A stretch of 64,000 nucleotides of DNA from contig NZ_CP014231.1 of NCBI RefSeq assembly GCF_001553645.1, forward strand, positions 930,001-994,000, given 5' to 3'. A model generated the notes under the pieces. That model did not search any database and was not told the DNA's origin. It saw only the letters and a program-made list of their open reading frames with translations. The DNA is from Leptotrichia sp. oral taxon 847 (GTDB lineage: Bacteria > Fusobacteriota > Fusobacteriia > Fusobacteriales > Leptotrichiaceae). This document shows, one piece after another, positions 13,343 to 43,362 of this stretch (position 1 is its first letter; every line of letters starts with the position of its first letter). Position numbers and translations under genes: made by a program.

Positions 13343-14368
13343 TTATTTTATTTTGAAAGTTTTTCCTAAAACATTTGCAATTTTTTCCACATTTATCATC
13401 AAGTGCTCAAATACTTCTTCTTTTAACGATTGTGGTCCATCTGACAACGCTTTATCCGGCTCTGGATGAACTTCCACCATAAGTCCGTCTGCTCCCGCTG
13501 CAATTCCCGCCATTCCTAGCGGCTCAACCATCCAGTATTTTCCAGTCGAATGTGCTGAATCCACTATTATCGGTAAATGTGTCAATTTTTTTATCATTGG
13601 CACTGCGTTTAAATCTAGCACATTTCTATATGCGGTCTCGTAAGTTCTTATCCCTCTTTCACAAAGAACTACATTTTCATTTCCGCCAGCCAAAATGTAC
13701 TCTGCCGACATCAGCCATTCCTCAATAGTTGCACTCAGTCCTCTTTTCAAAAGCACTGGAATATTTGTTTTTCCCACTTCCTTTAGAAGATCAAAGTTTT
13801 GCATATTTCTTGCTCCCAATTGAATCATATCAAGATGTGGTCCAAACTCGTAAAGTTGAGAAATTGACATCACTTCACAGATTATTGGAAGCCCTGTTTC
13901 CTCTTTTGCTTTTTTCATAAGCTCTATTCCTTCCATTCCCAGACCTTGAAATGAATACGGTGATGTTCTTGGCTTAACGACTCCTCCTCTTAGCATTGTT
14001 GCCCCATATTTTTTTACTATTCTTGCGGTCGTTAAAATTTGTTTTTCATTTTCAACTGAACAAGGTCCTGCCATCATCACAAGATTATTTCCTCCAATTC
14101 CAACATCTCCCACTTTTACAATCGTGTCTTTTGGATGAAATTTTCTACTTGCCCTTTTGTACGGTTCTTGCACTCTTTGCACATCAATTACATATTCCAA
14201 AGACTGAATGTGTTTAATATCAATGGTACTAATATCTCCTACCAATCCCAAAATTGAATATTCCGCTCCAATAATCGGTTTTACTTTAACGTTATTTTCT
14301 GTTTCCAGTCTTTTTATCAATCTATCTAACACACTCTTATCAATACTTCCGTCTATTTTTATAATCAT
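13343..14368 (-). CDS. aroF: 3-deoxy-7-phosphoheptulonate synthase (type I-beta), copy 1
   Basis: DAHP synthase condenses PEP and erythrose-4-phosphate, the committed shikimate step. The 341 residues split into an N-terminal ferredoxin-like/ACT-type regulatory domain (about 1-65) and a TIM-barrel catalytic domain. Visible motifs are AGPCSVE, GGVVKPRTSPYSFQG, QLGARNMQNFDLLKEVG, LLKRGLSATIEEW, ERGIRTYE, DSAHSTGKYW and the metal-binding MVEVHPEPDKALSDG. This layout matches the tyrosine/phenylalanine-regulated Thermotoga-type enzyme. It is followed downstream by the UPF0145 gene and tyrA. It is nearly identical in the catalytic part to copy 2. Confidence 0.95.
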   Translation of the reverse strand: MIIKIDGSIDKSVLDRLIKRLETENNVKVKPIIGAEYSILGLVGDISTIDIKHIQSLEYVIDVQRVQEPYKRASRKFHPKDTIVKVGDVGIGGNNLVMMAGPCSVENEKQILTTARIVKKYGATMLRGGVVKPRTSPYSFQGLGMEGIELMKKAKEETGLPIICEVMSISQLYEFGPHLDMIQLGARNMQNFDLLKEVGKTNIPVLLKRGLSATIEEWLMSAEYILAGGNENVVLCERGIRTYETAYRNVLDLNAVPMIKKLTHLPIIVDSAHSTGKYWMVEPLGMAGIAAGADGLMVEVHPEPDKALSDGPQSLKEEVFEHLMINVEKIANVLGKTFKIK

Positions 14369-15495: not shown

Positions 15496-15533
15496 AGATT
15501 TTCCTCCATTTATTTTTTATTTATTTATAACAA

Positions 15534-15557
15534 AAAAACTCTCTTTGATAGGAGAGT
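15534..15557 (-). terminator. Intrinsic terminator upstream of aroF copy 2
   Basis: On the minus strand, ACTCTC, an 8-nt loop and GAGAGT are followed by seven T. It ends 39 bp before the aroF start codon. It either ends the short transcript predicted from 15685 or acts as an attenuator of aroF. No T-box consensus or leader peptide rich in Phe or Tyr was found next to it. Confidence 0.7.
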
Positions 15558-15685
15558 TTGTAAATCGCACTTAATATTATACAGTGAACTACTCCCACTT
15601 GTAGAAGAGGGAGCTTCTTGGGAAGTATCTGCTTTTGCTAGCCAAATATATTTACCAAGCTCTTTGGGCAGTCCCTGCCCTGACT
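15535..15685 (-). ncRNA. Candidate orphan TnpB-type guide RNA (reRNA/omegaRNA-like) transcript
   Basis: On the minus strand a TTGAAA / 17-nt / TATAAT promoter (15720-15692) is followed by a roughly 150-nt segment that ends at an intrinsic terminator (15557-15534). The segment contains GGGCAGGGACTGCCC, then AAGAAGCTCCC, a short hairpin with GGGAG, and TAGTTCAC at 15584. This last part resembles the conserved right end of IS605/IS1341-type elements, which doubles as the 3' part of the TnpB guide-RNA scaffold. About 24 nt lie between TAGTTCAC and the terminator, where a guide would sit. No tnpB gene is in the window. The assignment rests on remembered motif similarity. Confidence 0.4.
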
Positions 15686-15691
15686 ATGAAT

Positions 15692-15720
15692 ATTATACCA
15701 TATAAGAGCTGTTATTTCAA
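15692..15720 (-). promoter_or_regulatory. Sigma70-type promoter within the IS605-like relic
   Basis: TTGAAA (15720-15715) and TATAAT (15697-15692) with an exact 17-nt spacer on the minus strand. It would drive the short reRNA-like transcript and, on readthrough, aroF copy 2. This is the best promoter in the 1.1-kb stretch upstream of aroF. Confidence 0.55.
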
Positions 15721-15732
15721 GCTATATTCTGC

Positions 15733-15776
15733 AATTCATCTCCCACTTATAGAAGAAGGAGAATTCTTGCTAAATA
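15733..15776 (-). repeat. Second, degraded IS605-type right-end relic
   Basis: On the minus strand AAGAATTCTCC, CTTCTATAAG and GTGGGAG repeat the hairpin region seen at 15584-15620 with substitutions. The terminal TAGTTCAC is decayed (TGAATTGC). Two successive right-end relics suggest nested or repeated insertions that have lost their genes. Confidence 0.4.
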
Positions 15777-15910
15777 TTGTTAAAATTTATAAATTATCAA
15801 TTTTAAAAAAAATTTATTAAAAGCCAACAACTACTAAAATTATGTGAAATACACATATTTTCCTACCAAATAACTACATTTTATAATTTTTATCTCTACT
15901 TTACTTCCAA

Positions 15911-15930: not shown

Positions 15931-16129
15931 ACACCTACTATCCTACATTTTTTTATTTTTTACCTAATTATTTTAACAAAAATATATTTAATTGTCAACT
16001 TGTGAAATTTAAACCATCGGAGTAAAATATTTACAGATAATTTTTAATTTCAATATTTTTTAATTTATTTTTGTTTACAAAATGTTATTTTGCTAAATAT
16101 AGTTTTTTATCTTTTTACATAAGGGGAAA

Positions 16130-16245
16130 GGACCGCCATTTCCCCTTATATCCCCACGCTCGTCTAAGCATTTTTTTGAAGCAAAGCCGAAACTCGCACT
16201 AAACGTGCTCAGACAGTCGTCTTTACTCCAAAAAAATCACGACAC
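16130..16245 (-). repeat. Structured intergenic repeat, inverted copy
   Basis: Read on the minus strand this segment contains GACTGTCTGAGCACG, TAGTGCGAGTTTCGG, an A-rich block and GACGAGCGTGGGG. It matches the order of blocks in the plus-strand copy at 16266-16396 and in the copy at 38328-38450. The two neighbouring copies face each other. It is more GC-rich than its surroundings and has no reading frame of note. Confidence 0.55.
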
Positions 16246-16265
16246 CTTTTGTATAATAGTAAAAT

Positions 16266-16396
16266 TTAAACCGTCGGAGCATTTTTATGTGCTGACAAAA
16301 CTGTCTGAGCACAATCAGTGCGAGTTTTTTGGCAGTGCATAAAAATGACGAAGACTAGCCGGGGTGCAGGGGTGCGGCGATGAGCACTTCTGCTTA
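16266..16396 (+). repeat. Structured intergenic repeat, copy 2
   Basis: It begins ACCGTCGGAGCATTTTTATG and contains a long imperfect hairpin: CATTTTTATGTGCTG pairs with CAGTGCATAAAAATG, and CTGTCTGAGCAC with GTGCGAG lies inside. A GACTAGCC and GC-rich tail follow. The same block order recurs at 38328-38450 and, inverted, at 16130-16245. The rest of 16397-16583 is AT-rich sequence in which I see nothing else. Confidence 0.6.
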
Positions 16397-43261: not shown

Positions 43262-43305
43262 AAAAAATGACTGTTCCCAAAATAATTAATTTCAGAAACA
43301 GCCTT
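43262..43305 (-). terminator. Terminator of pgk
   Basis: On the minus strand CTGTTTC and GAACAG close a large loop, followed by ATTTTTTATT. It lies about 60 bp past the pgk stop and just upstream of the acyltransferase start. Confidence 0.6.
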
Positions 43306-43362
43306 AATTAAAATGAAAAAAATTTATATGTAATAACAAATTTTATTTTTTATCATTGCATC

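Follow-up and report, generated by a model that had tools for sequence, protein, structure and literature searches.

Short elements without genes, termed PATEs, have been described among the relatives of IS605. The part of the source used here (PMC7290912) gives Halanaerobium hydrogeniformans as an example and portrays such elements as bearing an IS605 left and right end and as presumably mobilised in trans. Within the same part of that source, the PATE-like element of H. hydrogeniformans comprises only the left-end hairpin, the last 58 nt of tnpB and the right end. A second point of reference is the reRNA of ISDra2, an RNA derived from the right end that uses the flank as its guide and whose TAM lies in the flank of the left end (PMC8612924). 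ISDra2 TnpB can use an reRNA provided on a second plasmid; the natural target of TnpB has been proposed to be the donor joint, composed of the TAM and the flank (PMC8612924). The 369-aa TnpB of ISAam1 has TTTAA as its TAM (PMC12433972), and within plasmids the TnpB of IS200/IS605 elements works as a gene drive, according to a preprint (PMC11870625).

The subject of the present analysis is a 196-bp feature located upstream of aroF in Leptotrichia sp. oral taxon 847, within the 64,000-nucleotide stretch of DNA that was analysed as a whole (the window). It is close to certain that this feature represents a complete, gene-less and non-autonomous IS200/IS605 element with an omegaRNA. Its parts (Table 1) are arranged in the order left-end hairpin, promoter, omegaRNA scaffold just past the -10 box, right end (...TTCAC) and flanking guide DNA. 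According to the list of open reading frames neither a tnpA nor a tnpB frame is present inside the 196 bp, and in sequence comparisons both end hairpins matched those of autonomous IS605-type elements. The first-pass annotation had named a TTGAAA-17-TATAAT promoter, a hairpin, an IS605-type right end, about 24 nt taken as a possible guide and a terminator, and these sequences are indeed found on the minus strand, the 24 nt (15583-15560) separating the right end from the terminator stem. The interval assigned to them (15535-15720) was too short at one side, however, for the left end reaches 15779 and the TTTAA target occupies 15784-15780.

Table 1. Features of the mini-element and its surroundings (positions in the window)
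Feature	Position	Strand	Details or basis
TTTAA target site, predicted TnpB TAM	15780-15784	-	precedes all mini-copies; empty sites
Whole mini-element, 196 bp	15584-15779	-	98% identical copy elsewhere, copies in the genus, empty sites
Left end	15731-15779	-	hairpin CTCC(TTCTTCTATAAGT)GGGAG at 15761-15740, ends GATGAATTGC; also in autonomous elements
Promoter TTGAAA-17-TATAAT	15692-15720	-	-35 15720-15715, -10 15697-15692; hexamers as in the left end of tnpA-carrying relatives
omegaRNA (reRNA) scaffold, ~100 nt	15584-15683	-	stems 15680-15666, 15659-15617, 15614-15591
GGGCAGGGACTGCCC hairpin	15680-15666	-	seen in sequence
Right-end hairpin GCTCCC...GGGAGT and terminal AGTTCAC	15584-15614	-	common to mini and full elements
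AAGAAGCTCCC...GGGAGTAGTTCAC right end of IS605 type	up to 15584	-	seen in sequence
Predicted guide TGTATAATATTAAGTG (~16 nt at the start of the flank)	15568-15583	-	position by analogy with the ISDra2 reRNA (PMC8612924)
Host intrinsic terminator	15529-15559	-	stem 15559-15536 and T run before aroF; outside the element
aroF-like DAHP synthase gene, 338 aa	14479-15495	-	open reading frame; name from the first-pass annotation and by sequence reading
aroF leader promoter-like TTGACA-17-TAAAAT	15970-15998	-	upstream of the insertion
Unoccupied site of a mini-element carried here by sisters G006 and G009	43295-43313	-	empty-site comparison

A search of the same genome revealed, at G000:C1:315536, a further copy that has 98% identity across this unit and is embedded in other flanks, and a diverged third one at 1098359, so that this genome harbours three mini-copies in all. 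Full-length mini-copies, at least 29 of them (counts in the genus are lower bounds, scoring having been limited to 40 candidates per genome), were seen in five of 13 congeneric genomes. Since the unit recurs in this way, both at 98% identity with different flanks and across the five genomes, it is not a chance assembly of motifs. The 29 listed copies occupy 27 places, the shared positions being those of L075/L094 and L079/L081. Every one of them is preceded by TTTAA and begins with C, and nearly all end in GTTCAC. Three sites that are filled in the sister genome G006 are unoccupied in the genome of the window; here TTTAA (once TTCAA) is joined straight to the guide-side flank and the C is missing. 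One of the three is the site at 43295-43313 of the window. Insertion is thus precise and causes no target duplication, and the C after TTTAA is the first base of the element. The presence of near-identical copies at differing sites implies past movement of the mini-elements.

In a pattern search the exact mini pattern was limited to the host genus, and minis were seen only in genomes that also bear full elements. G035, a genome of another family, contained two copies (L241 and L242) of an independent mini-element. This one measures about 300 bp and has a left end, an omegaRNA and, by eye, a promoter-like TTGCCT-17-TATACT. Another observation concerned fusions of left and right ends, about 48 bp long, between TTTAA and TTCAC (TTTAA-C..hairpin..GTTCAC), of which 16 copies occurred in seven genomes (L283 and L288 among them). 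They resemble scars left behind by recombination in IS605 elements, similar in kind to solo LTRs, and were set aside as proof of what TnpA requires.

The mini-elements differ from full elements in the position of the promoter. In full elements TTGAAA-17-TATAAT or TTGAAA-17-TACAAT is found 8-20 nt past the left-end hairpin, ahead of tnpA or tnpB. In the minis the omegaRNA scaffold and the right end follow immediately upon the family's putative left-end promoter, and by its sequence the mini-element is a PATE/MITE-like derivative of a full element that arose by internal deletion. A promoter scoring at least 9/12 adjoins the scaffold in 27 of 29 minis, as opposed to none of 62 full (tnpB-type) elements (Fisher p ~4e-21, a value which overstates independence because the copies are related). 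The -10 box of the minis mostly lies 8-10 nt before the scaffold, and in two copies (L087 and L097) parts of the promoter have been deleted. The interval containing the promoter is 77% identical between subfamilies A and B and only about 40% identical between A and C; promoter-like hexamers and their spacing persist throughout.

It could be argued that the mini-elements are plain PATEs or MITEs, in which the omegaRNA part is kept only for the role of the right end in transposition, the promoter has passively remained from the left end and no functional guide is made. The promoter hexamers of the minis do match the left end of full elements, and IS605 remnants of the PATE kind have been presented as capable of being moved by a transposase acting in trans (PMC7290912). 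Nevertheless, we regard this explanation as rather unlikely. Subfamilies A, B and C agree in the hexamers, the 17-nt spacing and the distance of 8-10 nt to the scaffold despite divergence in the remainder of the interval, and paired changes have occurred in stems 1 and 2, distant from the tip.

Folding of the scaffold gave three stems at -30.9 kcal/mol with a z of -1.7, which is a modest signal when taken alone. In 28 sequences 98% of the pair cells contained standard pairs and three pairs had changed on both sides, covariation being limited because the alignment is close. Distant relatives from other genera contributed further paired changes, namely TATGTG/CACATA in L193 and TAGTTG/CAACTA in L195. 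A covariance-model search for omegaRNA, as proposed in the first-pass annotation, gave a divided answer: Rfam contained no family that reached the threshold for the scaffold, whereas a model built here scored the scaffold of the window with 125.4 bits and detected it or its relatives in 38 of the 96 genomes from the order, the 38 belonging to 11 of 27 genera. The best score in Rfam belonged to RF02841 (Ref70, an Enterococcus sRNA; 24.7 bits, E 0.012, below threshold). This match covered the full length of Ref70, equivalent to omegaRNA plus guide (window 15686-15572, minus strand), and Ref70 may itself be an IS605-type omegaRNA. HPnc0580 of H. pylori is a weaker case similar to Ref70. Membership among the omegaRNAs of TnpB is compatible with the absence of a fitting curated Rfam family. 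Between the mini and the tnpB-carrying elements of the same genome the scaffold shows about 91-95% identity, and its conservation could in part be due to the right-end needs of TnpA or to exchange with full elements.

The earlier statement that no tnpB is near holds for the locus but not for the genome, where three longer elements share the ends and the omegaRNA part with the mini and each adjoin a tnpB gene. One of them carries tnpA and tnpB, the other two tnpB only; full relatives sharing both ends measure about 1745 bp if they contain both genes and about 1370-1400 bp if they contain tnpB alone. The genome therefore does encode TnpB-type proteins that match the scaffold. All three are 365 aa long with intact RuvC motifs (GLDFS/VVEDLN/IDRDYNA; D/E/D kept), and among natural proteins of solved structure ISDra2 TnpB is the one closest to them (E 1e-61). 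Because the D, E and D motifs are retained, a nuclease-dead partner of the TldR type, which had been considered previously, is not needed. TnpA is a Y1 transposase (Y1_Tnp) whose gene belongs to L098 of the same genome, and a single tnpA copy was seen. Six other TnpBs of this genome (416-429 aa) fall into a different group. A 475-aa protein encoded at L039 (G000:C1:755664) showed a weak match to OrfB_IS605 and none in a TNB-domain search; it is a divergent TnpB-like protein.

These findings bear on the initial interpretation of the feature as an orphan, a scaffold retained and perhaps domesticated. Its core is supported: the feature does contain a guide-RNA scaffold of TnpB type, has a promoter to itself and lacks an adjoining tnpB, so that any action would necessarily be in trans. 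The terms orphan and domesticated, in contrast, are unsupported because the genome possesses three matching tnpB genes and one tnpA; what had been taken for a retained scaffold proves to be a mini-transposon that is intact, having both its ends, inserting precisely and occurring in many copies. That the aroF copy is a domesticated guide RNA, kept there to direct TnpB or a repressor of the TldR type in trans against a target in the host or in foreign DNA, is hardly credible. Its own promoter and the lack of an adjacent tnpB could be taken in that sense. However, the guide is merely flanking DNA, for which neither another match nor a second TTTAA-flanked target was found in the same genome, the sites differ among species, the sisters have an aroF leader without the element, and, judged by their motifs, the matching TnpBs have not lost the nuclease.

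The surroundings of the insertion were compared with those in the sister genomes G006 and G009. The aroF-like gene is the second of a tandem pair with a closely similar DAHP-synthase-like gene (13343-14368), and in both sisters, too, there is a second match near aroF. In G006 and G009 the element is missing from the aroF leader, which ends in the same terminator as here and also has a promoter resembling the one in the window. Hence the terminator is host DNA, and its previous assignment to the feature was mistaken. The element has inserted between the leader promoter and this terminator. At the insertion about 80 bp of the leader differ from the sisters, which is why the aroF copy has no clean empty site. 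The leader itself (15998-15495, minus strand) is long, about 475 nt including the element, with promoter and terminator conserved in the sisters. It looks like an attenuator, and a comparison with Rfam yielded no family at threshold. At 16034-16311 of the window lies a dispersed intergenic repeat of about 275 bp with internal inverted repeats, unrelated to the mini-element and represented by at least about 40 near-full-length matches of 89-96% identity in the same genome.

Its location between leader promoter and terminator raises the question of whether the insertion acts mainly in cis, as a new promoter or leader for aroF, and has been retained for that reason. We consider this very improbable, since the 28 other listed copies reside at unrelated places and the host terminator separates the promoter of the element from aroF. 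Among 28 minis, 9 had a sense terminator within 90 nt; the figures for comparison were 4 among 61 full elements and 2 among the 73 TTTAAC sites that the window contains. As the test was made only after the association had been noticed, it is no more than suggestive; it would be in keeping with a selective cost of read-through when the promoter is active.

In our opinion the mini-element is likely to function as a guide in trans. Our preferred explanation, which we hold to be probable, is that the TnpA of its relatives moves the mini, that the mini supplies in trans a guide with which TnpB is loaded, and that cutting of empty sites preserves the element. In this process the TnpA of full-length relatives would mobilise the mini-element in trans. 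Transcription from the mini promoter would yield an RNA that begins at the scaffold start or just before it, passes through the guide of about 16 nt and runs into the host terminator, and this RNA would load TnpB encoded elsewhere in the genome. The complex would spare the occupied site, where the guide is preceded by TTCAC and not by TTTAA. After excision, or in a sister allele, it would cut TTTAA plus guide at the empty site. Repair would then restore the element, which would thereby be preserved. Given that TnpB takes a separate reRNA and that the donor joint is its proposed target, a promoter-driven omegaRNA should protect a gene-less element in trans likewise.

Possibly, then, the mini-element is a guide-only parasite of TnpB. 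More tentatively, and with slightly less than even confidence, we propose a class of guide-only transposons. Its members would lack genes, devote a promoter to the guide of their insertion site, and be protected and spread by the TnpB of their relatives. The class would have arisen at least twice in the order, with selection favouring transcripts that reach a host terminator. If the guides work in trans, RNA-guided transposon protection would be a shared good open to gene-less elements, and a genome might contain many site-specific guides served by few TnpB proteins. The mini offers a direct test of whether TnpB serves solely the element that encodes it or every element in which the scaffold is the same. 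It would also be a natural, compact and promoter-driven guide cassette for TnpB of about 150 nt.

In the literature searched, of which the coverage of TnpB and transposition was partial and in which an earlier report may have escaped notice, we found no description of a promoter-driven gene-less IS605 element with a guide RNA. Stand-alone omegaRNAs acting in trans, from guide loci away from the nuclease gene, have been reported for IscB, an HNH system. TldR, according to the part of its description used here (PMC13418256), is an RNA-guided transcription factor derived from TnpB and likewise employs a TnpB-type guide RNA; the TnpBs matching the mini-element differ in having kept the nuclease motifs. 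The TnpB of ISAam1 has a TAM with the letters of the target site here and is similar in size to these proteins; unlike the mini-element, it has been used as a genome editor with its own tnpB (PMC12433972). The reRNA of ISDra2 corresponds to the 3' end of tnpB plus the right end, whereas the RNA of the mini is predicted to be promoter-driven and apart from tnpB. The mini-element is a promoter-bearing variant of the known PATEs, from which it is distinguished by forming a multi-copy family and by the placement of the left-end promoter 5' of an intact omegaRNA.
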